Source: Cyanodermella asteris (lineage: Eukaryota; Ascomycota; Lecanoromycetes; Ostropales; Stictidaceae). From it: a stretch of DNA of 64,000 bases. The notes beneath the pieces are model-generated. The model made no database searches and was not told where the DNA came from. It saw only the letters and a program-made list of their open reading frames with translations. This document shows, piece after piece, positions 12,108 to 57,943 of the stretch. Location of the stretch: positions 124,001-188,000 of the forward strand of contig UYJD01000008.1 of the NCBI GenBank assembly GCA_900618795.1. The letters are read 5' to 3'. Both the position numbers and the translations under genes were made by a program. Each line of letters opens with the position of its first letter. Position 1 is the stretch's first letter.

Positions 12108-12278
12108 CGTTAGATATTGCTTCTGAAATAGATGTGTCCGTTGTTGGGAGAGAGAATCCGTGTTGATGGCTGGGTTGCCCAGCCAAGGCGTGTCACGTGG
12201 AGTCACCCGCTGTTTGTGTCGCGAAACGCCTCGACTTCTTCCCTTTTACACCTCTACAACCTGCGCACTTGCCACACC

Positions 12279-17436: not shown

Positions 17437-19832
17437 ATGGCTGCCGTTTCTTCCGAACAGCTTTCGCATACTCCCCCTCACAGCCCTCGATTGTACCCAT
17501 CCGATCCAGTTGCACCTCTGCATATCGAGAAGGTCCTCATCGGACTGAATGCAGTCATCGATCGACTTGACAAATATCATTCTGCAAAATTGGACCCAAC
17601 TGGCAAAAGAGCCGTCGCATCGAAACTTGAGCACAGGAGCGTTGATGAGATGTATGCAAGTCTGCAGCTTGACCTTTCATAACTGACCCAAAACGCAGCT
17701 GGGACAACAAAGCATACAAATACAAGATCCAGGCCGATGTTGAAGACGCAACTATTGATGAGCTGGACGAATTCGCCTTCGTGATCAGGAATCGGACCGG
17801 TAGTTGTTTTCATATTGCAGGACTGTATCCAGCTGACCACCCTGACAGACCGGAAGTCTTTCCAGAAGACCGTCTTCCTGGACATCAAGTCCAGCCACGT
17901 TTGCAAGGCCCTGCAAGATGTCTTGAGGGGGGTCCGCGCCGTTTCTCTTGTAGAAGACAAGCCATCAGTGAGTTTCCACATCCTCGTTCTCAAAGACCAT
18001 ACTCACTTTGTCAGGTGGAACGAAACGTCCTCTTTCATTTCGAGCACGAAATTACTGCCTACCAGCATCAAGAAAGTGCCGCCCTACCGTTCAGAGGCCT
18101 GCGGGAGCTTGACCTGCTGCTCAATCACATTAAAAGCAGCTATGCGAGCACGGGAGCATCCCTCACCCCGCTCAAAGACGCGGGCTGCGTTACATACGAA
18201 CTCCTCTGGGCGCTCTTCAAGCCTAACGCTGTGGTATACACCACCTGTCCTGGCACCAACAAATCTCGTTGCCTAATCTTCGACCATGGCGAGGACATCA
18301 CCAGACGTGACGGCACCAAATACTGGCAACTCAACTGCCGCTATCTGGATTTCAATGGCACCAGGCTTTGCGAGATGTCCACAAAGCTCGCGATCGAGCC
18401 TTTCAAGGGAACTAAAATCATCAACTCGCTAGAAGTCTTTCCGCTTGAATTCCACACTCACTCTTCCTCAGTCAGATCTCGCCTAGTCCATCGCGGAAAG
18501 ATATTCAGATCGCTCATGGGCACACACCATCGCCACTGCGAAGGTGCAGCATTCACCAAAGACAAAGATGGCAATAAGATCAAGTTCACCGCTCATGAGA
18601 GAGTCATGATTGATGCATCATTCTTCCGCAAGATGCAGCCCGGCTACTTCAAACAGCAGGGCCTAGACGAGGATTGTTTCAGCTTTTGCGTTCCCGTGAG
18701 CTCGGAGGAACCCTCAAACAAGAGCCAGTCGGAGTCGGTCTTGTCTATCCCAGAGGCTCTGACTGACCAAGACTATTTGATCTGTTGTCCTACTGTGCCT
18801 GGATTCTGCTTCAGCACGAAGATTTGGGGTAAGGAGGCTCAATTTATTCGAGATCAGAGCTGACATCGGCTTAGGAGAGTTTGCCATTGACAACATCCGT
18901 GAAGTCGAATGGTCCCACCATCCATACAACTGCCTGTCGTTGCCAGCAGACCAGAAGCAGGTAATAATGGCTCTGGCTCAGCGTGCGAGTGCTGGTGATG
19001 CAAGCACGTTTGACGATTTCGTCGTAGGCAAGGGTCGTGGTCTGAATATACTTCTACAGTTTGTACCACTGTCGTTTTGTAGAGCGTTCACTGACCAGTG
19101 CAGTGGTAGCCCAGGGCTTGGCAAAACTCTGACAGCTGAAGCAGTTGCCGAGCATCTTCAAAGGCCTCTTTATTCGGTATGGTCTCTGTGTCTTGACATC
19201 AACCTTTACAGGCTGACATCTCCAAGATTGCGGCCAGTGAAATGGGTCTCGATGCCGCACAGCTGGACGCTGGTCTCTCCAAGATATTCACCATCGCGAA
19301 ACACTGGAATGCCATTCTTCTGCTCGACGAGGCTGATGTCTATCTTGAAAGACGCTCGAGCGCAAACCTAGTTCACAACAGCCTCGTCTCTGTGTTCCTT
19401 CGCCGGATGGAGTACTGTGAAGCTATCATGTTCCTGACAACAAACAGAGCGTCTCAATTTGACGAGGCGATCCTCAGCCGGATTCACCTGATGCTGAAGT
19501 ACAGCGCACTCGATCAAAATGCCAAAGCGTCGCTGTGGTGGAGCTTCTTGGGAAAAGCTCGCACATCACACGGAATTCCACAGGTGACGCCGAAGGAAGT
19601 CCGAAAGCTCGCTGGGAACAATCTCAATGGGCGACAGGTGAGCTGCGCAAAATCTTTGTGGTTAAAAGCTGACATCAAATAAATCAAGAACGTCGTTGCG
19701 ACTGCGCATGCTCTGGCGACATCGGAGGGTTCCATGGTGACGAATGCGCAGCTTGTGAAAGCATTGGAAGCTAACAAGGAGTTCATGCGCGAATTCACCA
19801 ATGCAGATGTGGCGGACAGCATCTATAGCTAG
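17437..19832 (+). CDS. AAA+ ATPase with N-terminal DUF7025-like region
   Basis: This is a multi-exon gene. Supported introns are 17652-17698, 17968-18014, 18829-18874, 19059-19103, 19177-19211 and 19638-19688; one near 17780-17815 is uncertain in phase. The N-terminal part matches the DUF7025 region of fungal AAA proteins (YTTCPGTNKSRCLIFDHGED, YLDFNGT). Splicing at 19059 yields Walker A as LLHGSPGLGKTLTAEAVAEH, followed by Walker B ILLLDEADVYLERR and sensor 1 FLTTNRASQFDEAILSRIH, then a lid helix and a C-terminal helix (TNAQLVKALEANKEFMREF). All ATPase motifs are intact, so activity is likely. Family members are large in number and mostly uncharacterised. No targeting signal is seen. Confidence 0.9.
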
Positions 19833-21581: not shown

Positions 21582-21984
21582 GCTTGTGTCGAGAGCTTAA
21601 GTCAACTAGAAGAGCAGAGGGTACGTTGCAAGACGGTTGTCCACGCCTGACATAATCCGTGGTTCCGGCCGCGCAGCATGCAAAGCGTAGTCGAGCGAAG
21701 CATTCAGCGATGTGCGTGGCTAAAGTTCGATCTTCAATTCAGACAGGGCGTTTAAATGACTCCGTCGTGAAGTGTTCGGTGCACACAGAGCAGGACCCTG
21801 AAGCCAGAGCTTCTACGTACTGGGTGCCAAGGGGCCGTTCCTTTGACTACTCAAGTGCCTCGCGCCAAGTTTTACCTTGCGAACGAAACGAGATACGCTT
21901 CAGCATCTGCGCTACCCTCGACCCTGCACCAGAGCCCAAAAGACTGCCGGAAGCGGAGACGTGCAAGATACGACAGAATCATCC
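21582..21984. promoter_or_regulatory. 403-bp head-to-head promoter region
   Basis: This is the only sequence between the start of the eEF1A-like gene (minus, 21581) and the NACHT/ankyrin gene (plus, 21985). A reading frame continues upstream of 21985 without an ATG in frame until that codon. The arrangement suggests a shared promoter. Confidence 0.45.
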
Positions 21985-24900
21985 ATGGAGCATCTCAAGT
22001 TGTTTCGGGAACGTCTGAGGTCACGCAGTCCTCGCATTTCCACTCGAGAGCCCAAGTCATCCCCAGATGCAACTGGCCGGTCTGCAGCCTCGAATCAACC
22101 ACTCCCACAGCGTCAGCGGCTCGGAATCGCACCATCTGCGGGCCATTATCAAAGAGCGGTATCTAGGACACAACCTACTGTTAATGGCGAGGCTGTTCTG
22201 GAGTCGCAATCGAGCTCGTTGGATGGGATCAATGATCACATGGATCTCTGGGACCAGGCTTTTGAGAACTTGCAGGCGCAGGAGCCTGGCGTGATTCACG
22301 ATTATGAGAAGTTCTTGATCCAGGAAAGCCTCACCAACGCAAGACGAACAGTAGCTGTTCTGGAAGACATCAAACCATATTCTGGAGTGGGGCGCTCGGA
22401 TCATTTGAAAAAAGTTCTGGCGAAGCAGCGCGATGCTTACGACCAGGGTCAATGGAAGGTCAAACTCGGTCGCAGAGAACTTGCGATACAGGACGTCATT
22501 CGAAAGATCGCAAGCTCAGTGATTGTTGCAAAGGACTTTATTGGAGCTGCTGCCAGTAACGAGCCTCACGCTGCATTAGCCTGGGCTGGAATAGCAGTTC
22601 TGCTATCCTTCCTCGTTGAATCCACAAAGCAAGAGTCGGAGGCCATCAATGGACTGGACAAGATAGGTAAGCTGCTTTTGCGGTATCGCGTATTGCAGAG
22701 AATATACCTGGACAACTTCGACAACGCTGACAACATGCCCAACGATGCAAGGGATATCTGGATTGACTGGCGGAAAAACACAATCGAATTGTATTGCAAG
22801 GTTCTGGGTTATCAGTTGCGCTTGGCAGATTATTACTGCCGCTCGGCCACTCGTCGCTTCGCCAGGAACCTTGCACAAGCAGATGACTGGAGAGCTCTTC
22901 TTGTCAAAATCGAAGATATATCGCAGGTGGGAGATCAATACGGAGCAACATTGAGAACACTTGACAGCGAAAATGTGGCTCGAATAAAGGCTGGCATCGA
23001 TGCCCAGAACGATCGTCTGGACGAAGTTCTGAAAAGATTGGACAGAGACGAGTGGGCTCGCCGCGCCGAAAGGATCGGATCTTGGCTCGAGAGGATGTTT
23101 GACCACCATGACGACAAGGTCCATGAGCAACTTAGGAATAGGAGGGTGAGCGCTGGGTGTGAAACCTGGCACAAGTTCATTTCCGTCGTACGGGACTGGC
23201 TAAGAGCCGGAGAGAGCAAGACTCTCTGGACAACCGCACCTCCCGGCACTGGGAAGTCGATGGCAGTATCGGCTACCATTGATTTTGTCGAAAAAAACCT
23301 GTTCAGCCTCGGGCTCGATGGTCTTGCATATGTGTATTTCCAATGGGACGAACAGTCGCAGCAGACTGTATCAGCGGTTGCCGCAAGCATTTTGCACAAG
23401 CTGCGTATCAGATCTGTTGCTCTAGCTCACTCGTTAGCAGCTCTCTATGACCACACCTCCAAGAAAACAACAATGCCCACTACACATGAGCTCCTCGACC
23501 AGATAGAATCATTGAAGGCTCCGCTATCAGATGCGAATTGCCACTTGTTACTTGTCTTCGATGGTCTGGATGAAGCCTTGCCAGAGACACAGGCGCTCGT
23601 GAGGGACTGGATAGGGTCCTTGAATCCATCAACTTTCCGAATCTTGGTTACTTCTCGCGATGGGTCTCCATTCACCCAGCTCCAAAATCCAGTCCAGATG
23701 ATGTTTCACAATCTGCGATCGGACCCAGACGAGTTACGTGCATTCATCTACGCAAAGCTTGTCAGCTCTCGGCCACACTTGCGAGAAGATCCCAAGCTTA
23801 CAGAAACCCTGACAATCAATATCGAGAAACAGTCCGGAGGACTTTTCTGGCAAGCATACATGCGCTTGGGCCATGTTTTACACGCAGGCAGTCAAGCCAA
23901 AAAGATGTTGAGAGCATCTCGTGAGGCAAGTGACAGTCTGAACGATGAGTACGTTAAGGCCATGGAGCAAATGAAATCTGCCCAGACCTACTCTCATCAA
24001 GAAGTGATCAGCACTCTGGCCTGGTTGACATTTGCGAAACGAACCTTGTCCTGTGATGAACTATCGACGGCTCTAGCTTATGATCACGATATTGGGACCT
24101 TCGATGATGATGACGGAGTCTGTCTGTCTGAAATTGCTAGTGTTTGCCGTGGCCTGATATCGATAGATCCGACATACCGTTCCATTCGATTATCCCATGA
24201 GACGATCCAAGGGTTTTTGCAAAACTTGACCGAAATCCAATGCGAGTTCCGAAAAATTTCTATGACTTGTCTTGCTGTCATCAAATCCCTGAAACCTGGC
24301 GGCCTTCCACACCCTAGCAATCTACAGGATCCCCTGGACCCTGATGAAGGACCTTTGCCATCTTCCATTTTCGGCTCGCTATTCGCCATTGAAGAGAATC
24401 ATTCAGGGCAGCACAACAGTCCGTCGGGTGCTCATTGCATCCTGGAGGACTATGCCCTGAGATTCTGGGCTGCTCATATTCGCGATTGCCAAATCCTTGA
24501 CCCTTCTCTGTTGGATGCAACTCTCGAGGCATATTGTTTGCTTGACCAACCCAATTGGGTAAGACTCGTCAACAGGCTGAATACTGAATCTATTGAAATG
24601 CCCTTAATGGATCCTTTGACAGCATCATGCTTTCATGGTCATGTGCATGTTTTGAAGTTCTTGCTAACAAAGCGACGTCATGAGGATGAGCAGATCCGGT
24701 CGGCTTTGTACTGGGCTGCTGCAAAAGGGCATTTAACATGCCTCGAGACCATTGAGCAATCAGTGAGCCCAGGAATACTTGTCACTGGACATGAGCGTTC
24801 TGGCTGTTCTCCCTTGGCTGGAGCTGCTGCTGGTGGTTTCAGCGATTGTGTCCAGTTTCTCCTCCGCAAAGGGATCTTCAACGCAAATGCCCAGAACGAG

Positions 24901-25953
24901 GAGAGCGATACACCATTGTGCCTAGCGCTCAAGAATCGACATGTCGAAACAGCATTGGAGCTACTTAACTGGCAACCGGCAGAAGCTTCAGACGTCAACA
25001 CCCAAGACTCCTCTGGCTGGTCTGCACTGTTCTGGGCCGTTGCCATGCATTCGACTGGCCTCGTATCTCATTTGCTAACCGAGACACGGGCTGACGTTTC
25101 TATCCGGGACTTCCAGGGTCGAAACCCCCTTTCGTGGGCTTGCGGATACGGTATGCCTGCTATCGTCGACTTGCTCCTCACAAACGGGCATTTTCAAGCA
25201 TCCCACAAAGATCAGGATGGTACGCCTTTGCTTATTCATGCCATCAGATCCGGAGATGTCCAAACACTGCGAAGACTATTGCATCATTACACAACCAATT
25301 TGCGCGGTCAGCCAGGCGAAGTCCAAGAAGTCATAATGGCTTGTGACTGTGCCGGCCGCAATGCGATCTCCTGGTCTGCTCAGTCCAGAAACCCCGAACT
25401 CCTCAGGCTCCTTCTCGAACTGGATCCAGATGGTGCCTCACAAGCAGACAATGACGGATGGCTGCCGATCGCATGGACACTTGAGCCGCCAGGGTATATT
25501 GACAACGCTATCCAGCTGATACCCCATTCCAAGGCCAGAATCAATGACTGTGACTATTCAGGCAGCTCACTGTTGCATCTTGCCGTCAAATGGAGCAATG
25601 CAGAGATGATACACCTTCTGTTGAACGAGGCTCTGGTTGACGTTAATTTAAAGGATATGTCTGGTCGGACGGCCTTGTCCCACGCTGCATCACGTGGCTC
25701 TGTCGAGATTGTGGGCCTGATGCTTACTTGTCGTGATGTCGAGATAGACGCCATGGATGTCTCTGGACGCACCGCACTCTCATTTGCTATATCAGGTGGG
25801 TTTTTGGACGTTGTGCAAGTCTTGGTCAACCTCGGACGTGCAAGTACGTCGACTGTAGACTTCAATGGATTGACGCTTGTCCAACAAGCCCAGTGCGCCT
25901 CACAAGACGACATTGTGGAGTACTTCAAGAGCAGAGCCATGGACACAGCGTGA
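21985..25953 (+). CDS. STAND NTPase: NACHT_N - NACHT - ankyrin repeats
   Basis: This is a 1,322-residue single-exon fungal NOD-like protein. Residues about 1-70 are basic and Ser-rich (MEHLKLFRERLRSRSPR). About 75-290 match the NACHT_N (NWD) helical domain (LWDQAFENLQAQEPGVIHDY; VIVAKDFIGAAASNEPHAAL). The NACHT core has Walker A APPGTGKSMAV near 417-426, Walker B HLLLVFDGLDEALP near 518-531, and a sensor-like FRILVTSRDGSP. A winged-helix-like segment (TLAWLTFAKRTLSCDELSTAL) follows. From about 875 to 1310 there are roughly ten to twelve ankyrin repeats (GRTALSHAASRGSVEIVGLML; GRTALSFAISGGFLDVVQVLV). All ATP-binding residues are present. Such proteins sense self/non-self or stress signals in fungi; the ligand is unknown. 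ATG 21985 is the first in frame. Confidence 0.94.
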   Translation: MEHLKLFRERLRSRSPRISTREPKSSPDATGRSAASNQPLPQRQRLGIAPSAGHYQRAVSRTQPTVNGEAVLESQSSSLDGINDHMDLWDQAFENLQAQEPGVIHDYEKFLIQESLTNARRTVAVLEDIKPYSGVGRSDHLKKVLAKQRDAYDQGQWKVKLGRRELAIQDVIRKIASSVIVAKDFIGAAASNEPHAALAWAGIAVLLSFLVESTKQESEAINGLDKIGKLLLRYRVLQRIYLDNFDNADNMPNDARDIWIDWRKNTIELYCKVLGYQLRLADYYCRSATRRFARNLAQADDWRALLVKIEDISQVGDQYGATLRTLDSENVARIKAGIDAQNDRLDEVLKRLDRDEWARRAERIGSWLERMFDHHDDKVHEQLRNRRVSAGCETWHKFISVVRDWLRAGESKTLWTTAPPGTGKSMAVSATIDFVEKNLFSLGLDGLAYVYFQWDEQSQQTVSAVAASILHKLRIRSVALAHSLAALYDHTSKKTTMPTTHELLDQIESLKAPLSDANCHLLLVFDGLDEALPETQALVRDWIGSLNPSTFRILVTSRDGSPFTQLQNPVQMMFHNLRSDPDELRAFIYAKLVSSRPHLREDPKLTETLTINIEKQSGGLFWQAYMRLGHVLHAGSQAKKMLRASREASDSLNDEYVKAMEQMKSAQTYSHQEVISTLAWLTFAKRTLSCDELSTALAYDHDIGTFDDDDGVCLSEIASVCRGLISIDPTYRSIRLSHETIQGFLQNLTEIQCEFRKISMTCLAVIKSLKPGGLPHPSNLQDPLDPDEGPLPSSIFGSLFAIEENHSGQHNSPSGAHCILEDYALRFWAAHIRDCQILDPSLLDATLEAYCLLDQPNWVRLVNRLNTESIEMPLMDPLTASCFHGHVHVLKFLLTKRRHEDEQIRSALYWAAAKGHLTCLETIEQSVSPGILVTGHERSGCSPLAGAAAGGFSDCVQFLLRKGIFNANAQNEESDTPLCLALKNRHVETALELLNWQPAEASDVNTQDSSGWSALFWAVAMHSTGLVSHLLTETRADVSIRDFQGRNPLSWACGYGMPAIVDLLLTNGHFQASHKDQDGTPLLIHAIRSGDVQTLRRLLHHYTTNLRGQPGEVQEVIMACDCAGRNAISWSAQSRNPELLRLLLELDPDGASQADNDGWLPIAWTLEPPGYIDNAIQLIPHSKARINDCDYSGSSLLHLAVKWSNAEMIHLLLNEALVDVNLKDMSGRTALSHAASRGSVEIVGLMLTCRDVEIDAMDVSGRTALSFAISGGFLDVVQVLVNLGRASTSTVDFNGLTLVQQAQCASQDDIVEYFKSRAMDTA

Positions 25954-37864: not shown

Positions 37865-40266
37865 ATGGCGAAGAAGCGGACTCGAGAAACGAGTGCCTTG
37901 GCTCCCACAGAGGAGCGCCCAGCTAAGAAACCCCAGAAAGCAACAGAGCGACCTGGTGTTGCGCATAACCGCGAGTTCTGGGAATCTCACTTCGGCGAGG
38001 AGCTCTTCTCCAAACAGAACGTCACCAATCATACCACTCAATATGCAAAATCGCGCCCGTGAGTGCTGATGCTCATATCTGTCTATATACAACCACGCAG
38101 GCTAGCTGACTACTTCCTAGCTACAAGCACGGAGTCATCGACGGCCTCATCAACGATGAGCTCCTCCGGGGCGTACGCAGCGAGGTCCTCTCTGAAATTC
38201 ACTACACACAAAAAGAGACGGACATATACAAGATCCATCAATCTGGCGACCTTGCAAACCTAGACGGTCTCGACGATGCATCGCTCCGCAAGCTTCCGAA
38301 CCTGCTCAAACTCCGCAATGCGCTTTACTCGCCAGTCTTCCGAGAGTACTTGGAGACGGTCACCGGAAGTGGCAAGCTCTCAGGCGAGAAGACAGACATG
38401 GCAATCAACATATACACGCCTGGATCGCATCTACTTTGCCATGACGATGTCATCGGGAGCCGGCGCATTAGCTACATTCTGTACCTGACTGATCCGGATG
38501 ATCCGTGGAAAGCGCAGTGGGGTGGTGCGCTCAGGCTCTATCCGACGAAGGAGTTTAAGAAGAAGGGCGAGGTTTCGCATGTTCCGCAGCCAGATCCGAT
38601 AAAGATAATATACCCAGCATGGAACCAGCTCAGCTTCTTCGCAGTGCAGCCAGGGCTGAGCTTCCACGATGTGGGCGAGGTCTACGAGAACAAGAAAGAG
38701 CTGAAGAATGGGCAGCCAATGCGAGTTGCTATCAGCGGGTGGTTTCACATCCCCCAACAGAATGAAGCTGGTTTTATCGATGGTGAAGCTGAGGCATTAC
38801 AAAAGCAGAGTAGCCTGACGACTTTGCAGAGCAGCGATGAACGATTCGATTATCCGCGACCGCGACCCACAGCCTATCCCGAGTATGATCCAGACACACC
38901 CAATAAAAAGTTCCGACCCCGCGTCAACCGCAACAGTGCCCAAATCGAGGAGGACAAGCAGCGCGAAGCTGAGGTAGAGAAACGAAAAGCCATATACGCG
39001 GCCTTTCAGCGGGGCGAGGAGGATTCCGAGCACGATGTCCTGACAGAAGAGGAGGCTGGCTTCCTCTGCAAATACATCAACCCAATGTTCCTTGCTCCCG
39101 ATCAAGCCGAGGAAATGCAAGAAGCTTTCCACGACAATGGCCAGATCGTCATTGAGAAATTTCTGCATCCCAAGTTCGCTCGCGCAATTGAGCATTATAT
39201 TGGACAGCATTTCCCGCACACGATGTCTGAAAACACCAACAAGATCGAAGATGATTTTGTCTGGAAGGTTGCAAAGCCGCCACACAAGCACAAGTACCTC
39301 GTTATGGACGATGACTCGTCCTCGCCCGGCGGCGCAAATTTGAGTCTGAAGAACCAGACCCCAGTCGCTCAGAACGAGGTTAAACATTTGCTCACCAACG
39401 TGTTCAACAGTCTGCCATTTCGAAAGTGGCTGCAAATCATCACGGGGTTGATCTTTAAGTCGCATGATATGCGAATCCGCCGGTTCCGCCGAGGTCAAGA
39501 CTACCAGCTCGCAAAGCTCTACACAGAGAAGGAAGGTCGGGTCGAGATTACACTGGGCTTGACTACAGGTGGTAAGTGGGAAGCGCTGCCCGAGGAAGAC
39601 GAAGCAGAAGAAGGCGAAGCAGGTCAGACGGGTTCAGCCAAGAAGACCGGTCAGAAGGGCGAGAACGGCATTGCGAAGAACGGAGCAGTCAGTGGATCCG
39701 TCAACGGGGCGGCAAAGTCTCATGTTGCGAAATCCAGCAAAGCCAAACCGATCGTGGAGTTTGAACCTCTTTCAACGGAGTCAGCGTCCGAGGAAACCAA
39801 TAATGGAGGCTACGAGATGTTCATCCGTGGCGACGAGGATGAGGACGACGATCTTCCAGAAGACAAGAAAGCGCAAGCCAAGGGTCAGAAAGGTCATTCG
39901 CACCTGGACGTCACCGGCAAGCAGCGCAAGAAGGCCGATCCTGCAGTATACCAGGCTGCGGCCGATGATGATGACGATGGGATACTGCTGAACATGGCTG
40001 CGGGCTTCAATCGCATGAGCATCGTGCTCAGAGATCAAGGGACAATGAGGTTCGTCAAATATGTTAGTGAGAGGAGCGATGCCGATCGTTGGGACCTGAC
40101 AGGAGAGTGGGAAGTTGATTGGGAGAGGAGTGGGAAGGTGCACGGCTGGGATGAAGAAGGGGAAGACGACGCAGGTGACGACGATGAGACGGCGGAAAAC
40201 GGCGTTGACTATGAAGAAATTGTTGACGATGAGGACGAGGATGAACTTGACGACGCCGACCAATAA
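37865..40266 (+). CDS. TPA1: prolyl 3,4-dihydroxylase, Tpa1/Ofd1 family
   Basis: Exon 1 (37865-38058) and exon 2 (38121-40266) give 779 residues. The N-terminal 2OG-Fe(II) domain has iron ligands H172 and D174 (LLCHDDVIGS) and H247 (GLSFHDVGE), and a 2-oxoglutarate Arg near 266 (MRVAISGWFH). The second, non-catalytic Ofd1 C-terminal domain follows at about 300-480 and 660-740 (RRFRRGQDYQLAKLY; NRMSIVLRDQGTMRFVKYVS). By family knowledge these nuclear enzymes hydroxylate ribosomal protein uS12 and, in fission yeast, control Sre1 stability with oxygen. The protein is larger than yeast Tpa1 (about 644) because of a low-complexity Lys/Glu/Gly insert of about 130 residues inside the second domain and an acidic C-terminus. 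A basic N-terminus (KKRTRE, AKKPQK) may be an NLS. Confidence 0.95.
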
Positions 40267-41308
40267 CGTACAGTCGTTGAAGATGCTGCGATTGGGCCCG
40301 TTTCTTCAGGCCCTTGGGCTCTGATTATGACGATTGCCCATCTCGGCTGCTGCACGGACTTTACAGGGAACTGCCACATCTGAGGCGATAAAAATGATTG
40401 TACATAGCAGGAGCGATTGCTTGAGAACCATGTTGAGCGTTCTCGGATGCGTAGAAACAATATTTACGAATTCCCTTGGCTCCCTTCTCCTTGCCCGTTT
40501 CTTTTGTTGCTTCGTGTATTTGTCAAACTCTACATGGATGTTCAAAAACATTGAGGACAGCAATCATGCACCGAACGTGCCGGAAACTAATAAGCACTAA
40601 TGCAGCGCAACCCACAGGATATCCCCAAGCGACGCGCAAGCACTAAGAAAAAAAGATTCGGGGCTAAGGTTGACGTGTTCCGCTATTGAAGCCGCCTGGA
40701 ACAACCTCAGCAAACTCCGGGAGTGGATGCTGGCACATCACAATGGCAGTGCTTGCAATCAGCTTGACTACATTGGACTTCCTTTCCACGACATGATTGC
40801 GAGCAGCACGAATTGGATTGTCATGCCAATATCAAGCGATCCGAGAGCCCGCCATGCCTACATATGCTTTGTGAGACCCTCTTGAGCCTGCCAGACAAGT
40901 TCACAAAGGCAGGGAGAAATTACGAGTGTGACTGCGCATCCTAGCTTTGTTCGAACAGTGTATTTGCGAAATATTGACCGTCACATGTATAAGAGCATAT
41001 CTGCGCCACATGGGCTGCAGTCACGACTTCATCAGACTGACGGACGGAGCTTTCATCACACTTACGGACGGAATCTTCACTTTCAGTGCTTCCCGGGTGA
41101 GCAGGTATGACAGGCAATGACAGGCCGTGCTGGCAATGTTTTCCTCAGCCCAACACGCTTCAGTCGTCAGTACGTGACGCAGACAGGTTTCGATAAGCTC
41201 TTCGGCTGGCTTTGATACATAGCCATCTCTGCGCGCATTCGGAGGAAACTCTTCGCAAATGCCAGACCCTTTCATCGACCCGAAATAACGAGACGTGTGA
41301 CAGCAACC
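40267..41308. other. intergenic upstream of the tandem family
   Basis: No firm gene. An open frame at 40670-40885 (AIEAAWNNLSKLREWML, later HAYICFVRPS) has a faint likeness to the N-terminal domain of the tandem family that starts at 41309 and might be another relic copy; support is weak. Confidence 0.45.
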
Positions 41309-42386
41309 ATGTCCGAAACTGTTCGTGAGACGACAACGGATGATCGAGCGGAATATTGGAACCAAATGGATATTATAGTGAACAGTCTCTTATCCTCCAG
41401 CTATGGACGCCTCACGAATGACTACAGGTCTTCGATAGAACCATTGTATGAGCTTCTGCCGCACGCACTTGCAGGCCATGTCATGGGCATGGCTCGCCTC
41501 CCATCAGCAGGGCATGACAGTCTCATTTGGCCAGCGGGATGGGACGACGGAGACGCAGATATGTCTGGACACATCGAAATCACATACTCGATGCCTTTGA
41601 ACCACGTCTTCGTGATCAGATTGAAGCCGGTGAGTATTTCCTCTTGAGATTTCTGAATCGAGCGCGTGCTGACTTTGATCGTCGTCGAAGGGTTCTACGC
41701 ACGTTGACCTGACTCGATTGCGTCCTCACAACCGACCGCCGGAAGATCAAGCTCTAATTTCAGACCCAAATGATAACACCACAGCACATCCACAATCTGA
41801 AGCGGCACCGGATCCGCTTGTGTGCACTGACGGCTGCTGCCAACGGCACAATCGTTGCTTGCGACCTGCGTCCCCTTCGTGGCTTCTTGCGAATGAGTCT
41901 TCCCATCTGCAGGCAACGTGTCAACCATGTGCAGATTACAGTTCACCAAGGACCATACTCCACGAAGCACGCCACGAGGCACCGCCTGCCAATATTCCGG
42001 CCTCAATATACTGCCGCAACAATCGCAGCTCCACGTACAGAGCCCAACTGGAGGGCTACGTCACCTCACCCGGCCCAAACGCTTCGCGCACTGAGCAACG
42101 CGAGATCAGACGCATCAACATCTCGACTGCCAGAGCCCGCCTTGAAGGCTACAACGAATCTCCTTCTCAAAGTCCCTCGTTCGTTCCAGGCGGCATGGCT
42201 CGCGGTCAATCTGCTATGCAAGCGCCGGCGGGTGGGGAGAATGTGCAGTCATTTGGAACCAGGCCAGATTCCCTCCTTTCGCTGCTCAGGCCGCGCCGTC
42301 GTGGATCGCCGACAACGAGAGCTTACCTTGAGGGATATTGTCCTCCGCCGGAGCGCTGGCGGGACCAAGATGATGTAGCACGCTGA
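41309..42386 (+). CDS. tandem family copy A, LEGY-repeat protein of unknown function
   Basis: Exon 1 (41309-41629, 107 codons) and exon 2 (41691-42386) give 338 residues. I do not recognise the family. The N-terminal domain is helical, then GMARLPSAGHDSLIWPAGWD, and ends with YSMPLNHVFVIRLKP exactly at the splice junction, matching the equivalent sites of copies B-D. The tail is disordered and has three copies of a motif: YRAQLEGYVTSPGPN (L227), ARARLEGYNESPSQS (L258) and TRAYLEGYCPPPERW (L320). A Cys cluster lies between (CTDGCCQRHNRC; CQPC). Copy A lacks the first intron of B-D, yet its first exon, 321 nt, equals exon 1 plus exon 2 of copy D. There is no signal peptide or membrane segment. 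Confidence 0.72.
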
Positions 42387-42855
42387 TCGATGGAATGCAG
42401 TAGTCGCAGCCAGTGATATCGAGAGATTGATTTGAGTGGAAGAGGCTCGCAGCTCTTGGATCGATAGCGAGTCGTTTCCAATGTTTGACTACAATTCACA
42501 TGACTAGGTATCGCCGGACATCTAACAGGTCGTCGCATGGAAGACACAGACTACTTATCGACAAATGTCAAGGCAGCAGTTTTGGGAGGCTGGGCCATGT
42601 CATCGGTGAAGAATCCTCCCTGACTCCGGCCACTGGGTGTTGCTCAGCAATAGCGCCTGTGAAGACACATGGGACGATTTCTAAATGATATGAGTCCACG
42701 CAACATTCGCAGGCGCGCGTTCTGGTGAATCACGAGAGGTGGTGTGCGTTCCTTTCCCTAATAAATGTCCTCTCTTTCATGTTCTGTCTTTAAGTGACAA
42801 TCCAGTACAATTCATCTCCACCAACCCGAATTATCAACACAATCAAGAACCAAAA
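42387..42855. other. spacer between tandem copies A and B
   Basis: Promoter and 3' sequence only; no coding exon seen. Confidence 0.5.
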
Positions 42856-43906
42856 ATGAATGACGCCATACAGAATTGGATTGTGGCAGTCGGGTCGGCT
42901 TGGGAGATTGAAGACAGCTTGAGTAGGTGAACCTCCTTCGAAATGTCCTCTTCGTTGCCTTTCGCGGTGATTGAATGACTTGATGCAGTGAGTAGATGTA
43001 CCCCGGACAACGAAGCTGAAATAGCGAAAGCCATTCAAAAAATTCGCAATGAAATAGTGGCGCTGCAATCAAAAATCGGGGTTGGCCTTGCCGTCATGCT
43101 ACCGCATTTTTCCGGCCAGGACCTTGCAAAAATTGTCATGGATAGTCAAACCAAAAAGGACGGAGTCCAGTTTGTCTACCGCTCCATATCGCTGCCACTC
43201 GGACATGGGCTAATAATCCGCACCACCGAAGTAAGCCGAAGACCCTTTTCGGGTAAACACCATCAAAGAGGCCTTTTGCTGATTTTTGTGCTAGCCCCCA
43301 GGAAGTCATGAAAAATACAAAGGGCTACCTGACAGCGTGAGTCGAAGATCGTCAATGTCAGATCTGATTGACCTCCACTCGCAAGACAGCGGCATCTCAC
43401 TCTCGGGACTGATTGGGGACGATTGCGACAAGACGAACCCGCATATTCGGCAACAAGCACAGCAAATGTCGGCATCTCTGCTAGACACTGACATTTTGGA
43501 GAATCTCGGAGAATGGCAAAGAGCCCGTCCGTTCGATCCGCCCAGTCTACACAAGTCAGAAGGCATCAAGAAACAATGCGTGGAGGACTCGCGCTCACCA
43601 GTCTACGAAGCTCCAAAGCCCCGAGCTAACCACAGTAGGGCCACGACCAGGGCTTGCATCGAAGGATATGGTACAAATTCGCACCGACTGAGCGCTGCGA
43701 AGAATGGCAGCGACCATGTCAGGGTGAGTCCTCTTAACGTCCCCGTCAAGCCTTTGAGAACACAATACCATAACTCGTTGGGTCCGAAGGCCAGGCATTT
43801 GCTCGGAGAAGACTATGTTCCCCCACCCGTGGCCGATAGGCGCTCCTCACGAATTGAGCCCGCGATGCCTTCGAAACTACGTGTTTGGCTCGGGAAATTT
43901 CTGTGA
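42856..43906 (+). CDS. tandem family copy B, unknown function
   Basis: Exons 42856-42922 (67 nt), 42989-43230 (242 nt) and 43295-43906 give 306 residues, all phases consistent. It begins MNDAIQNWIVAVGSAWEIED, close to copy C (MNDVIENWITAVATALRIEE). Exon 2 carries a helix (EIAKAIQKIRNEIVALQSKI), LPHFSGQDL and ends SISLPLGHGLIIRTTE. Exon 3 is disordered, with RRSSMSDLIDLHSQDSGISL, SASLLDTDIL, then the LEGY-type motif TTRACIEGYGTN (shared with copy A) and KARHLLGEDYVPPP, and a basic end PSKLRVWLGKFL. It thus combines the DLIDL motif of C/D with the LEGY motif of A. No known domain; probably cytosolic or nuclear. Confidence 0.75.
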
Positions 43907-44513
43907 TTTCGCGCCTTTACGAGAGAATGACAGTCTCACCTGGCTGTTAAAACTCCATTCATCAGATTAAGGATATCCAAAAGCATAATAGATGATTTGC
44001 AAAGAATGTATGGGCAGCAGAAGCGAAGCTGCAAGCTCGGTGGTTGCGAAGGCAGAGAAAAGGTATCTTCAATTTATTACGACTGTTTGAGCCAGCCTCA
44101 TTCAAGATAGCGGGCCATATCGTCCTCACTTGGTAGCAGCATCAGAAGAATGAGATGGTAGTCATCGTCGAATATCGTGTCTGAGTCCATATTGAGACCT
44201 TCGTCCATATGTGTCAATAAAAAGTTCATAGAGCCTAGAGAACCTTTCCAAAGCCTTGCTTAAAGTGCGTGAAACGCTTTGCGAATTGTTATAATTGATA
44301 TGAATCAATAGCAGTGAAGTAGGTGCATGGGCCTGGTATAAATACGAGTCTCAGTCTTGCCAGGCTTACCTGGAGGTGAAGGGTAAGAGCTCGCCCTGCT
44401 TCCGTTGCAGTGATAAATATCCCCGCCTTCATGCTCTTTTGTTATTCCTCCCTCACAGCGTGACGAAGGAACACAGCAGCGCGTGACTGTCATTAAAATC
44501 ACAAGCTTTGAGA
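43907..44513. other. spacer between tandem copies B and C
   Basis: No coding exon seen. The stretch is AT-rich around 43950-44300. Confidence 0.5.
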
Positions 44514-45245
44514 ATGAACGACGTTATCGAGAATTGGATCACAGCAGTTGCGACAGCGCTACGTATCGAGGAGAGTATTGGTAAGTCACGCATCGAGCGA
44601 CTCCCTTTGTTACTTCAGCGCATGATTTGACCTGCCCTAGCGAACGGACGCACCAAGGATAACGAAGTTGCTGTTGACAAAGGCATTGACAAACTTCGCG
44701 AAGAGCTTGTGTTGCTGCAGTCGAAAATTGCAGCAGGTCTTGTTACTGTGTTTCCTCACTTTCCGGAAGAAGATCTCGCGAACATTGATAGCTGGGAAAG
44801 CTACGAAGAAGATGACGTCGACTTTGAGAACCGCTATGTACCCCTACCACTGGGGCATGGCTTGATCCTTCGCACGAAAGTGGTACGTTGGAAATCGATG
44901 GAAAATTTGTCATGAACGTCGCTGACACGGTGGTCTACCTAGCAGCGCAACGGCATCTCATCAAGATCGGCTCGAGTGTCTGAACACAAAGAGGGATTGG
45001 AAATTTCCAACGGGAAGAATCCGATTCGAGAGTCCAGCATCTCGGACCTGATCGATCTGCGGTCTCCGAGCAATTGCTCATCGTTCACGCTGGTTGAAGA
45101 CACCACGCCAAATCTAAGCGGAGAACGAGCCCCGCAGCAGATCTCAGCATCCTTACTCGATGAAGATATTATGGAAGACGTCAAAACTGTGGCCTTGTGC
45201 CCCACATCGGCCGACCAGTCGCAAGCCGAGTCACAATACCTCTGA
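44514..45245 (+). CDS. tandem family copy C, short tail
   Basis: Exons 44514-44580 (67 nt), 44641-44882 (242 nt) and 44946-45245 give 202 residues. Exon lengths 1 and 2 are identical to copy B, and the protein aligns along its whole length: MNDVIENWITAVATALRIEE, KGIDKLREELVLLQSKIAAG, FPHFPEEDL, YVPLPLGHGLILRTKV, then SSISDLIDLRSPS and QQISASLLDEDIMEDV. It stops soon after, without the LEGY-type motifs of A and B. The last acceptor is a tandem CTAGCAG, so splicing at 44942 or 44945 would add or drop one Gln. Function unknown. Confidence 0.74.
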
Positions 45246-46146
45246 AAGCTGCCTCGAGCTCGACTATCCCGCCTATTTAACTGGAGACGTTGTAGTGGGA
45301 ATCACGATGCCGGTCCAGGTCCTAACATCATAGGTGGGGGAGATCACGAAAGCAACCACGCAGTCACCATAAACAAATGAAACAGAAAAGCCCAAGCAAT
45401 GGCTGACAAAAGAGTCAATTCCTGTCTGTGTGTGTTTCTATCAAGCTGTCGCCCTAGAAGAAAGAGAAGAAAAGAGTAAGAAACCCGTGCGGGGTGAGTC
45501 AGCACGCTACGCTAGAGTCTGCCCAAAAAGGGCAATATGCTAATGAAGGCCTGCGATCACCACGACAACACCAGATCTGCAGCGTTCGCAGAGCTGATCC
45601 TGAGTGGCGTGAACGAGGCCCGAGAAGGGGGTCAGGAAGAAGTCACGATTACTCATTTGTCCTAATAGAACGGCATTGAAAATTGGATGCGGGAGCGTTT
45701 GCCTTCCCTGAGCCCAAAAGTGACCAGTTGCAAGACCAAGGATTGAATGAGCTTCGCCGGCCAGAGTCTATAATACAACAGCTTGGTAAATTTAATTCGT
45801 GCTTCACAAGCCCATGATTTACCATCGTGCATCCTAATTAGAGCATCGCTGGAGTATTTGGTCGGGGATGGGGAACCGCTTGGTGAAGCTCAGAGGTGCA
45901 TTTGAGCGACACCGGCGAGCTTCTTCACACAAATGAAGTAAATATGATCTCCTTTGCCTCATTCAGGTGCCCGGGCGTAGCCTGTAAGTGAAGGGACCTT
46001 CAACCAGCGAGTCCAAGCGAATGTCGTGGATTCGGCTGCGCTCCAGAACGCGATAACTGCTCGTCTCACATCACTCTACACGCCCACTGTTATTCCACAT
46101 TCTGAAGCCCGACCGTCTTTGACATTCGAGTGCTGCCATCTCCAAA
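45246..46146. other. spacer between copies C and D, with a relic copy
   Basis: Apart from the relic at about 45667-45790 no gene is seen. Confidence 0.5.
45667..45790 (+). pseudogene. relic of a fifth tandem-family copy
   Basis: The bases from 45669 read NGIENWMRERLPSL, matching the start of copies B and C (NDAIQNWIVAVGSAW), but the ATG is lost. From 45734 the frame reads DQGLNELRRPESIIQQL against DKGIDKLREELVLLQSKI of copy C. The spacing between the two parts is shorter than in intact copies, and nothing after about 45790 can be aligned with confidence. I read it as an old, truncated duplicate. Confidence 0.4.
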
Positions 46147-47025
46147 ATGTGTGACGGAACCACCAATTCGCTGCGAACGGTTGCCCAGACTTTGAAGGTG
46201 GTGGATAGTCTTTGTAAGTATCGTGAAGCTGGATGAAGCATCGATCCTTGTCCAATCTGAGTGTTTTCTGATAAGGATAAACAGTGGAAGCTCGCCATGA
46301 TAGTGGAAACAAGCAAATCATCGACACAGCAGCTGCGTATCTGAAAGAGGAGGTACTCGACATCGGAAAATACATCAAGAATGGACGAGTCGTTGTTCTG
46401 GGACGAGTCCCGCATCCGGTTGGCATTGACGACTCCTGGCCTGACGGCTGGGATAAGCACAAAGAAACACAGTATTGCTTTTTGGACCGTGTGTTGTGGC
46501 TCCCGCTCGGACACTCGTTCATTTTCCGAGTCAAAGTGGTCAGTTTCGCCTACAATTTTAGTTCTCTTATGTAATGCTGACTTGTCGCTCGCGCCGTAGG
46601 GAAAAGGATGCCAGGCCATCAAAGTCCAACCCGTCGAAGTGGCGGACGATGAGAATGAGTGGATCGATTTGGAGGCCTCCCAAGACTCTCCGGCTGCTTG
46701 GCCAGGGTTGTTCGGGGACCTCGTCAACTTGGATACTCCACCCCACTCACCGAGTTCCAATGCCCTCAAAGACAACGACCTGATAGTTATGGAGAGCTCG
46801 AAGCCCCTGTTGACGCCGAAGACATCAAATGAAGACGTCATTGATCTGAACACTCCGAAGCGATCATCGCCAACGCTGGTACACGAGACTTTCATCGACC
46901 GGAGGGGCCCAAATCGGAGCTCAGTCCATCATGGAATGTACGAGGAGACTCTGATTGAGCAGAGCAGCCAAGTCCGCGCTTCACACGAAAAGGCTATGCA
47001 CAAGGCGACGCTGATCGAACTGTAA
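46147..47025 (+). CDS. tandem family copy D, TLIDLNSPKR-repeat protein (frame resumes after stop)
   Basis: Exons 46147-46213 (67 nt), 46285-46538 (254 nt) and 46600-47025 give 248 residues. The first exon has the same length and end phase as B and C. The N-terminal domain contains GRVPHPVGIDDSWPDGWD, shared with copy A, and ends WLPLGHSFIFRVKV at the splice site. The tail has repeated motifs: DLVNLDTPPHSPS, DVIDLNTPKRSSP, EETLIEQSS and ATLIEL followed by TAA (47023-47025). The same frame then continues for 106 codons to 47343 with SPKRILARTPTKKETLIDLN and more of the same kind. The TAA therefore sits inside a repeat where Asn is expected, so the annotated end is probably a recent truncation or a read-through site. 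Confidence 0.72.
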
Positions 47026-47343
47026 AGTCCAAAGCGCATCTTAGCTCGGACTCCAACCAAAAAAGAAACTTTGATCGATTTAAACAGTCCAAAGAGGCCG
47101 AAAAGCTCAGAGCCAGAAGTGGGAAATGGAACAAGAAGCCGTCAAAATTCTTGGAGCACTTCAGATGGCCAAGAAATAAGCGTGCGACGGCCAACCCAAG
47201 AGGAAAACAACGCTAGGCCGAGCCAGCAACGAAAATGGAGCCCACTCGACCCTTACGTGAAGATTAAGTCCACAACACCTGTCTTGCGTTCGATGAGCAA
47301 ACATACGCCCAATTTCAGTCGGCCAATGACGCGAGGGGCCTAG
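47026..47343 (+). other. in-frame continuation of copy D beyond its stop
   Basis: This frame stays open for 106 codons directly after the TAA and keeps the composition and motif of copy D (TLIDLNSPKRPK; ending SKHTPNFSRPMTRGA). It would be the former C-terminus of the protein. Confidence 0.6.
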
Positions 47344-48001
47344 GCTATCCTGGAAATTCGGACTTGCCACTTGAAGTCTGTATCTTTCCGCACCGCTTGA
47401 GTGGGAGTCGAGCCTGTGGCTGGAATTGGCACATTGGATCGAGTTTGGGCAAATCTTCAAGCTACATACTCAAGTTACATGAATACTTGTTGGTTGCCAG
47501 AAGTTTTATGAAGAAGTGAGTTGGCATGCGGTCGTCTTGGCAGTAGAAGACATGACATGCGATTACATACAGACTTGGACGTTGCAAAGGCCTGGATACC
47601 TAGCCAACAAGCATGTAATACAATACAAAAAATCCGCACCAAACGTTCCAAAAGGTAGCATGCATGTAGTAATCGAAGTTGAAGCCTCGTGTGTCGAACA
47701 CGACTTGTCAGTGCACAACATCAGTGATGCATCGAACAGTACAAGCAAAACCTGTTTGAAAGAAACATCTGATTACTATTTACAGCTCTAACAAGCGAAA
47801 GTAAAGGGAGTGAACTGAACCGATTTTGTCAGACAGCAAATTGGTCCTCCTCATTCAGTCATTGCAATTCGTTGCGTGGCCAATCTTCGAAAGCGTACAG
47901 TGAGGAAACATGCCGGTCATTTGCTGTGATCGTCAAAGAGCGTATCCTGGCACATACTCAAGATAATGGTCGTATCCAGAAGTTCGTCGTGAAGTCAGTC
48001 C
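47344..48001. other. intergenic between converging genes
   Basis: An open frame at 47516-47791 lacks an ATG and any family likeness. No supported feature. Confidence 0.5.
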
Positions 48002-56465: not shown

Positions 56466-57903
56466 GGTGAGTGGAAGAGTCGAAGCTATACCAGCACGAT
56501 GATGGATCGCTCGGGCTCTGGCACAGACAGGGTTGACAGTCGAGAAGATCTAACGCCTCGAGAGGTCGCCCTGGTGGTTAATTCACAATGGTCAAGACAA
56601 GAAATCTTGCAGTTGTGCTGGCTCGATCGCCTTGGGCAATCTAGAGGAAGATTTGCTGCACACAAGACGGTGGACGAAGGTCAGTCGTACAGGTGCGGCG
56701 ACGGGAGGGTAAAGTCGGTCGACTCGCGTGGAAAGCGTTGGCCGCCGGGAGTGAGCGAGTTGCAACGGTTGCTTCACAGACCTGTAGGTGGAGCTATCTC
56801 GGCGACGACTGCAACGTCGGTCTTGTGGCGAGCAGCGATCGAGTGGTCAATCGACGGAAGTGCTGACGGGGTCAAACGATGCAACTCCGGCGGGCCCCGA
56901 GTAAGCACAGTGCAGATTTTCTGCAGTATGGGGAAGTCCTTGGAAGATTGAAGAATTGTGCGCAGTACGAACTCTTTGAGGGGCGGTGTTGAGGCTGAAT
57001 GCAGAGTCGACGATGCGGACGGACAGCAGTCTGGTGGTGAGCCGGTGTAAGAGATGAAGCGAAGAGGCTGGAAAGGCAGCGAAAAGGGACGAAGTGGAAT
57101 CAAGCTATTGCACAGCAAGACTCGACTTTGGCGCACGGGGATGGCGAGCTGGCGTGGTTAAGCTGGAGAGCAAGAGGGTAGCAATGGAGGTGATGGAAGG
57201 ATAGAAGGCGGCGGGCCGAATGGTTGGACGGGTGTATAGAGGAAGCTAGGGTTATTGGGCAGCGTCCGCAAGTGAGTGAGCGAGCAGGGGCGACGGCGAG
57301 CAGGCTCAGCGGCAGGGAAGATCGATGCCTTTTGGGTGCTGTGACCGGGACGGGGGTGGACGGGGAGCCAGAAGGAGGTGGGAAAAGGGACGCTGATGAG
57401 CAGAGCAGAGGATGCGACGCAGCAGAGTTCACTCGAGTTCCCACCCAGCAGCACTGACTTTCTGCTCCCATGTGCCATCCTGTGCGCTCATGCCTGCGCC
57501 AGCATCCTCCAGCTGCCGCAAATCCCTCCATCTCTGCGTCGGATCGCCAGCTGGGCGGCTCGCGCTGCCATTGGGTGTGCCATGCACTGCAGCCAAATCT
57601 GAGACTGGGCCTCTACAAGACACTCTGCACGCGTCGCCATTCCGACACCACTCCCTTTCGCCCTGTGATATATCACCCGAGTACCTCTCCTGCCAATCTT
57701 CGCCGCTACGCCCAGGAACCTGACACTGAGCATGTCTGGAAATGCCTTGTCGATCGACGAGCAAGACTCGACCTCGAACTCCCTCGCCTTGCCTGCTTTG
57801 CTCTGTTCGATGGTCCAGCCTCGCTCTGCCTGTCAGCTTCCTATCTTTATCACCTTTGTCAGCCGCAACGACTGGCAGAGACTCGCCCACCAAACGCCGG
57901 CCC

Positions 57904-57943
57904 TGACCCTCGCTGACCCTCGCTGACCCTCGCTGACCCTCGC
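57904..57943 (+). repeat. decamer array (GACCCTCGCT), four copies
   Basis: Four nearly perfect head-to-tail copies of a 10-bp unit lie about 1.4 kb upstream of the bHLH start. Confidence 0.85.

Follow-up and report, generated by a model that had tools for sequence, protein, structure and literature searches.

Four predicted genes, all starting with an ATG on the forward strand of the window (the whole 64,000-nt stretch of DNA analysed), at 41309 (A), 42856 (B), 44514 (C) and 46147 (D), are tandem paralogues whose intron positions are conserved. Although genuine, the family has the look of an ordinary one, of unknown function. It offers a clean case of an old tandem array in which intron positions have outlasted sequence similarity. 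Its gene models can be tested, and they concern proteins that automatic annotation could not connect through any domain.

Gene models and exon layout

The sequence-only reading had placed four same-strand genes at these starts, and all four ATG starts were confirmed. The exons of the models, with the intron of A, are as follows.

41309..41629, forward strand: gene A, exon 1; 321 nt, the entire N-terminal domain (107 residues) with no internal intron
41630..41690, forward strand: gene A, intron; 61 nt, phase 0; GTGAGT, CTGAC at -22, acceptor AAG
41691..42386, forward strand: gene A, last exon; tail of flexible type, carrying HVDL and RxxLEGY three times; protein of 338 aa
42856..42922, forward strand: gene B, exon 1; 67 nt
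42989..43230, forward strand: gene B, exon 2; 242 nt; domain, terminating in PLGHGLIIR-TTE
43295..43906, forward strand: gene B, exon 3; tail containing LIDL, SASLLDxDI and a single RACIEGY; protein of 306 aa
44514..44580, forward strand: gene C, exon 1; 67 nt
44641..44882, forward strand: gene C, exon 2; 242 nt; domain, region of the better of two structure models
44943..45245, forward strand: gene C, exon 3; tail short, containing LIDL and SASLLDxDI; protein of 203 aa
46147..46213, forward strand: gene D, exon 1; 67 nt
46285..46538, forward strand: gene D, exon 2; 254 nt; domain
46600..47025, forward strand: gene D, exon 3 in the straight reading, stopping at TAA 47023-47025; 248 aa

The claimed 67-nt first exons ending in the same phase (phase 1) are present in B, C and D, the second exons of B and C are indeed 242 nt long (254 nt in D), and the first exon of A equals exons 1 and 2 of D (321 = 67 + 254 nt). 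This equality reflects collinearity, since BLASTP aligns residues 44-108 of A with residues 44-108 of D over 65 columns with no gap or offset. In the models, which were read from sequence, a phase-1 intron follows codon 22 in B, C and D and is absent from A, while a phase-0 intron lies behind the domain in all four genes, three residues past a shared motif. The splice site after this motif was described correctly; its wording as PLxHxxxIR was not, and PLxHxxxxR fits (IR only in A and B, LR in C, FR in D).

All seven introns are GT-AG and 60-71 nt long, and each contains a branch-point-like YTRAY starting 9-23 nt before the intron end. For exon 3 of B the acceptor at 43294 is in frame, and the alternative at 43301 would lead to a stop after 12 codons. 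Under the strict intron rule, 44943-45250 contains no intron candidate that would extend the tail of C.

Paralogy of the four genes

BLASTP links B with C (E = 6e-39), C with D (8e-12), B with D (2e-8) and A with D (2e-6), A being connected to the other copies chiefly via D; in a tblastn search of the window, A found itself and D (E = 0.003), with the remainder at E of at least 0.74. The observed score of the N-terminal domains was equalled by none of 500 shuffles, all of which preserve single-letter composition only, for A-D, B-C, B-D and C-D, and by 21 and 25 of 500 for the weaker pairs A-B and A-C. For whole proteins, A-B was reached by one of 500 shuffles (BLASTP E = 0.10), and A-C was not above chance (178 of 500). 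The predicted exon frame scored highest among 36 frame combinations in all six pairs, with narrow margins for A-B (34 vs 32) and A-C (34 vs 33). The domain is better conserved than the tail in B-C, B-D, C-D and A-D. An antisense reading was rejected: a 274-aa minus-strand open reading frame overlaps D, and the sense frame scores best for exon 2 in the three pairs involving D. The earlier claim of a tandem family with a shared exon layout is supported by BLASTP, by the shuffles, and by the intron positions and phases.

The N-terminal domain and searches for relatives

The domain comprises about 105 residues, is encoded ahead of the phase-0 intron and contains PLxHxxxxR as an invariant strand. 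Structure prediction, which the sequence-only reading had suggested as a check, gave a usable model for exon 2 of C (80 residues; mean pLDDT 78.2, pTM 0.57, order H-H-E-H-E-E) and a poor one headed by A (pLDDT 58.6), unfit for a fold search. From the model, built on four sequences, the domain is likeliest to be a small alpha/beta fold of helices and three strands. The share of disorder-promoting residues is 0.40-0.48 in the domains vs 0.55-0.59 in the tails.

Pfam gave no match at E 10 for whole A, B and C and for D up to its stop, and none at E 1 for single exons; NCBIfam gave none for the four N-terminal domains, and in PHROGs nothing matched the four-row alignment A3, which covers the domain without its exon 1 part. 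One of the four A3 rows matched PDLC00816 in PADLOC (E = 0.0065), which we took as chance. The best PDB sequence in the profile search, fission-yeast RPB11 (E = 0.065), and the alpha-synuclein rows (E = 0.38-1.9) were likewise set aside, the other PDB sequence matches having E of 0.3 or worse. Against solved structures, Foldseek with the model of C exon 2 gave a best E of 0.14 and none of 586 matches at or below 0.001; by fold, neither PDB nor BFVD yielded a credible match. Scans of the viral_contigs (four), genome_contigs (one) and phages (one) collections found no relative; stretches matching a search pattern numbered 2, 2, 7, 5 and 336 in five scans, and all failed confirmation. As these collections are viral and prokaryotic, this says little about fungi. 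The statement that no domain or family can be named holds for the libraries searched (Pfam, NCBIfam, PHROGs, PADLOC, PDB, BFVD), none of which is a fungal proteome set. A word search of open-access articles showed no paper on this family among the matches listed.

Filamentous fungi have lineage-restricted tandem multigene families without a Pfam domain. A-D resemble such orphan families in being local same-strand paralogues with no recognised domain, low identity and conserved introns, and we found no feature that distinguishes A-D from them.

Divergence and extent of the array

The array had been interpreted as a case of rapid divergence after local duplication. This was not borne out. For B and C we observe dN of 0.397 with dS off scale, and an excess of third-position differences (35, 28 and 64 by codon position; p 0.0002). 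Such values (dN 0.40, saturated dS) are the pattern expected of old copies under purifying selection, and the constraint on B and C is seen in both the domain and the tail. Conserved introns together with low protein identity are the usual picture for old duplicates. Domain dS fell outside the range of the formula in four of the six pairs and was 1.5 and 2.1 in the remaining two. In the proposed comparison of dN and dS among the copies, B and C are constrained, and constraint on A and D was demonstrated neither by pN/pS for A-C (0.599 and 0.651) nor by codon-position tests for B-D (p 0.34) and A-D (59, 50, 71; p 0.16, no clear third-position excess). Nothing points to recent copying or gene conversion: the longest repeats found within 40200-48000 measure 23 nt (78-83%), and none of A, B, C and D is touched by a tandem repeat array.

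A gene relic had also been placed between C and D, and this stretch (45250-46146) proved indistinguishable from shuffled sequence. In translated alignment 95, 47 and 40 of 100 shuffles scored at least as high against B, C and D; the DNA scores against B, C, D and A were 21, 21, 22 and 26, with shuffle maxima of 26, 27, 32 and 29. With frameshifts and introns permitted, the score was reached by 63, 25 and 37 of 100 shuffles for B, C and D, respectively, and against C 19 of 43 other stretches of the window scored equally high; gene B, the positive control for this alignment, scored 244 vs 41. The translated test with B, C and D as queries revealed no extra copy in the spacers 40267-41308, 42387-42855, 43907-44513 and 47344-48000, the lowest shuffle counts out of 100 being 10 for B in 40267-41308, 14 for B in 47344-48000 and 16 for D in 43907-44513.

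The end of gene D

Gene D had been assigned an end at 47343, but its frame is not open that far: an in-frame TAA occurs at 47023-47025, within a repeat unit that is open on either side, and hence an end at 47343 requires read-through or a further intron. Past this TAA, 105 codons are open, a length reached in 6 of 2000 shuffles. The candidate features are as follows.

47022..47087, forward strand: candidate additional intron of D; in frame, 66 nt; GTAAAG, TTGAT at -17, AAACAG; would excise the TAA
47088..47343, forward strand: candidate final exon of D; frame unchanged and open until TAG 47341-47343; 332 aa if spliced so

The candidate donor is weaker, and it lacks the +5 G present in all seven family introns. 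In-frame introns of this kind span 123 of 2035 stop triplets on the plus strand of the window and 126 of 1957 on the minus strand; the rule applied accepts the seven introns of the family and had been loosened so as to take in the D candidate. We set aside three other introns that would run from the donor GTACGA (46938) to acceptors 47027, 47087 or 47096 (90, 150 and 159 nt); these introns would be in frame, but are longer than those of the family.

C-terminal tails and their motifs

The tails comprise 231, 203, 100 and 247 residues in A, B, C and D, respectively, and are copy-specific: RxxLEGY repeats occur in A and one in B, C is shorter, and D carries (I/V)DL and (S/T)PKR repeats. A SASLLDxDI block is common to B and C. 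Tail similarity exceeds shuffles for B-C (0 of 500) and B-D (2 of 500), and the tail of A is not above shuffles against C (343 of 500) or D (352 of 500), nor are its first 60 residues (454 and 371 of 500).

Every tail has an (I/V)DL motif inside its first 37 residues. In the MAFFT alignment those of B, C and D share one column and the VDL of A lies three columns off; the pairwise A-B alignment likewise leaves the motifs unmatched, and the pairwise C-D alignment places LIDL of C opposite a different site of D. The four tails contain six [VI]DL vs 0.34 in shuffles (none of 2000 had as many), counting the third copy of D, which is translated by neither gene model because it lies past the TAA and within the candidate intron. 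There are four [VIL][VIL]DL (one untranslated, in D) vs 0.11 in shuffles, and 22 SP/TP sites vs 12.85 (7 of 2000 as many). SUMO-interaction motifs (SIMs) have an aliphatic core with acidic residues or Ser/Thr close by, in disordered sequence; a broad pattern for them is not clearly enriched (7 vs 3.38; 102 of 2000 as many). The excess of motifs owes part to common descent, given the similarity of the B-C and B-D tails. Hydropathy, the only measure applied here, suggests no membrane segment (top 19-residue values of 0.77-1.45 in A-D) and no signal peptide (top 11-residue means of 0.87-1.42 in windows that begin no later than residue 30).

Possible function and alternative explanations

We tentatively propose, as a possible but doubtful reading, that the genes are an old tandem array encoding intracellular adaptor proteins, probably in a filamentous ascomycete, with SUMO the most specific candidate partner of the tail and with at least B and C under purifying selection. 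Each of the four old duplicates would encode an intracellular protein with an N-terminal domain, binding a partner or itself, and a flexible tail whose short linear motif would dock a second protein, the tails having been remodelled copy by copy. SUMO is put forward as this second protein since DLIDLxS and DVIDLNT are akin to SIMs of the VIDLT type; that they act as SIMs is a guess. VIDLT is given as the SIM core of PIAS1 in PMC3901395, and A-D are similar to multi-SIM proteins such as RNF4, and to PIAS1, in having (V/L)-I-D-L in a flexible tail; D has two translated [VI]DL. Unlike RNF4 and PIAS1, A-D contain no RING or SP-RING by Pfam, two of the six motifs, in A (HVDL) and in the first copy of D (WIDL), lack the first aliphatic residue of the core, and SUMO binding is putative here. 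If the tail motif does bind SUMO, the family would add one more adaptor family to the SUMO pathway. To our knowledge, few readers of this pathway are known in filamentous fungi.

It is quite plausible, if short of probable, that the family is equally old, that its tail motifs reflect shared ancestry or chance with no common ligand, and that function resides in the N-terminal domain alone, for example as a small regulatory or RNA/protein-binding domain. If so, the tails would be expected to differ as they do in length and repeats, the VDL of A could well lie outside the column of the other copies in a tail whose similarity to C or D stays within the range of shuffles, and the domain would be the better conserved part, as in B-C, B-D, C-D and A-D; the aligned (I/V)DL of B, C and D, SASLLDxDI in B and C, and the B-C and B-D tail similarity argue against this. 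We consider it unlikely that the array is partly decayed, with B and C as working genes, D as a pseudogene and A perhaps drifted beyond function. The TAA of D and the long open frame beyond it, the marginal similarity of A to B and C, and the A-D differences by codon position are consistent with decay; on the other hand, A, B and C have open exons, and the candidate 66-nt intron, despite its donor, could excise the stop of D.

A rapidly evolving family under diversifying selection, of the incompatibility, host-interaction or secreted effector type, would agree with the sequence-only reading of rapid divergence and would combine low protein identity with a tandem array, as observed, and might leave copies such as A and D with no demonstrable constraint; a NACHT-ankyrin gene, a FunK1-type kinase and a DUF7025/AAA gene also occur elsewhere in the window. 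We nevertheless regard it as quite unlikely: B and C are constrained in domain and tail, no secretion signal is suggested by hydropathy, the proteins A to D have 8, 4, 2 and 3 cysteines, and the NACHT gene is about 15 kb distant.

An extension of the adaptor reading, which we hold to be very unlikely, is that the proteins are new fungal adaptors reading SUMO via tail motifs of the (L/V)IDL(S/T)P type, with the copies tuned by repeat gain and loss, and that the stop-bearing repeat of D is turning into an intron, splicing choosing between the 248- and 332-residue forms. If the candidate intron did arise in this way, it would be a minor example of intron birth.

Gene models and paralogy of the array

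The four genes of the array (A–D) and the gene preceding them are arranged as follows.

38350-40266: Ofd1-type 2-oxoglutarate oxygenase gene (PF10637, E 1e-72), directly upstream of the array
41309 (+): start codon of A; first exon of 321 nt
42856 (+): start codon of B; first two exons of 67 and 242 nt
44514 (+): start codon of C; first two exons of 67 and 242 nt
46147 (+): start codon of D; first two exons of 67 and 254 nt

When the genes were rebuilt from the sequence, the starts, exon lengths and phases proposed earlier proved correct for the predicted models. In these models all seven introns have GT-AG borders, are 60-71 nt long, and carry a YTRAY branch-point-like motif starting 9-23 nt upstream of the intron end. 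The phase-1 intron is absent from A, and residues 44 to 108 of A and D align without an offset; hence the single 321-nt exon of A would correspond to exons 1 and 2 of D.

Judged from their protein sequences, A–D form one family, and the tandem family proposed by the sequence-only reading is borne out by BLASTP, shuffles and frame controls. BLASTP matches were obtained for B-C (E 6e-39, 43% identity, 188 columns), C-D (8e-12, 26%, 207), B-D (1.6e-8, 29%, 177) and A-D (2.4e-6, 26%, 65). For the N-terminal domain, encoded before the phase-0 intron, none of 500 shuffles reached the observed score in these four pairs, vs 21/500 for A-B and 25/500 for A-C; for whole proteins the latter values were 1/500 and 178/500. 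Thus, A belongs to the family mainly through D. In six-frame controls the predicted frame came out best in all six pairs, with a narrow margin for A-B and A-C. Residues invariant across A–D are one G, one P, and the P-L-x-H-x-x-x-x-R strand.

A further copy, a relic between C and D, had also been suggested, but the stretch 45250-46146 did not stand out from shuffled sequence when compared with B, C or D (its score was equalled or beaten by 95, 47 and 40 of 100 shuffles, and by 63, 25 and 37 with frameshifts and introns allowed). Under the latter setting, 19 of 43 other stretches of the window scored equally high against C.

The proteins were also described as unrecognised, and no credible match was found in Pfam, NCBIfam, PHROGs, PADLOC, PDB, BFVD, or the viral, phage and prokaryotic contig scans. 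As fungal proteomes were not among these libraries, "unrecognised" here means lacking a curated domain. Old fungal paralogues in tandem without a named domain are a familiar kind of family, and the interest of the array is modest.

Tempo of divergence

The proposed rapid divergence is not supported. By the Nei-Gojobori method, the domains of B and C differ by dN 0.397 and their tails (the last-exon part) by dN 0.622, with dS past saturation in both. Differences at codon positions 1, 2 and 3 number 35, 28 and 64 in the domain (p 0.0002) and 46, 27 and 61 in the tail (p 0.0015). Given the saturated dS with lower dN and the third-position excess, B and C have been under long-lasting purifying selection. 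For the remaining pairs, domain dN is 0.77-1.38, and dS is saturated or above 1.5. The codon-position test, applied to B/C, C-D, B-D and A-D and leaving out A-B and A-C, gave a weaker excess for C-D (54, 44, 72; p 0.03) and no clear one for B-D (p 0.34) or A-D (p 0.16). The selection signal of A and D has faded beyond judging. Repeats shared by parts of the region reach 23 nt at most.

The stop codon in gene D

Gene D is not open through to its claimed end, as TAA at 47023 breaks the frame. Past it, 105 further codons are open in frame, a length attained in 6/2000 shuffles, and the stop sits within a repeat unit, TLIEL-stop-SPKR adjoining TLIDLNSPKR. D may be truncated at 248 aa or spliced to 332 aa; alternatively, the stop may reflect a recent nonsense mutation or a sequencing error.

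Splicing would use a candidate in-frame intron, 47022-47087 (66 nt), which would remove the stop. Its donor, GTAAAG, has no G at +5, a residue present in all seven family introns, and it failed the strict intron rule tried first, as did the A intron (AAG acceptor) and the second D intron (GTC donor). A looser rule was written post hoc so that all eight pass; under it, in-frame introns span 123/2035 and 126/1957 stop triplets on the two strands. Support for the candidate intron is thus weak to moderate.

Domain, tails and possible function

AlphaFold2, run on C exon 2 (80 residues) heading the four-row alignment, gave mean pLDDT 78.2 and pTM 0.57, with a predicted element order H-H-E-H-E-E; the A-headed model was poor (mean pLDDT 58.6). 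Foldseek searches with the C exon 2 model gave nothing significant, the best E values being 0.14 for PDB and 0.07 for BFVD.

Disorder-promoting residues make up 0.55-0.59 of the tails vs 0.40-0.48 of the domains. The tails contain six [VI]DL (shuffle mean 0.34; 0/2000 reach six), one among the first 37 residues of each and two extra in D, the last untranslated in either D model; 11 other window ORFs (~6,900 residues) contain three. RxxLEGY occurs three times in the A tail (41691-42386), with one RxxIEGY form, RACIEGY, in the B tail (43295-43906); RxxLEGY averaged 0.00 in 2000 shuffles and was absent from the 11 ORFs. B and C share SASLLDxDI.

Hydropathy suggests neither a signal peptide nor a membrane segment in A–D. 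Combined with a small folded domain followed by a tail of linear motifs, this would be the layout of an intracellular adaptor, a role we consider possible but doubtful. The (L/V)IDL(S/T) core of the tails resembles, and only resembles, the VIDLT core that PMC3901395 gives for the SUMO-interaction motif of PIAS1. Two of the six [VI]DL lack the first aliphatic residue of a VIDLT-type core. In the MAFFT alignment the first [VI]DL falls in the same column for B, C and D, and that of A is out of register by three columns. Enrichment of the broad SIM pattern is not clear (102/2000 shuffles reach the observed count). A putative SUMO reading joined with intron birth in D is, as a whole, very improbable.

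Other features of the window

The window (64 kb, G+C 53%) also contains the following. Together with the Ofd1-type oxygenase gene, the kinase and NACHT-ankyrin genes listed here make a filamentous ascomycete the probable source.

12132-14744 (+): FunK1-type fungal protein kinase gene (PF17667, E 3.5e-117)
17673-19679 (+): DUF7025, then AAA ATPase pieces
21847-25950 (+): 1368-codon open frame for a fungal NLR-like protein (NACHT_N, NPHP3-type NTPase, ankyrin repeats)
41027-41079: short tandem repeat just 5' of A, 24 nt x 2.2 copies
57903-57943: 4.1 perfect tandem copies of the 10-nt unit CTGACCCTCG
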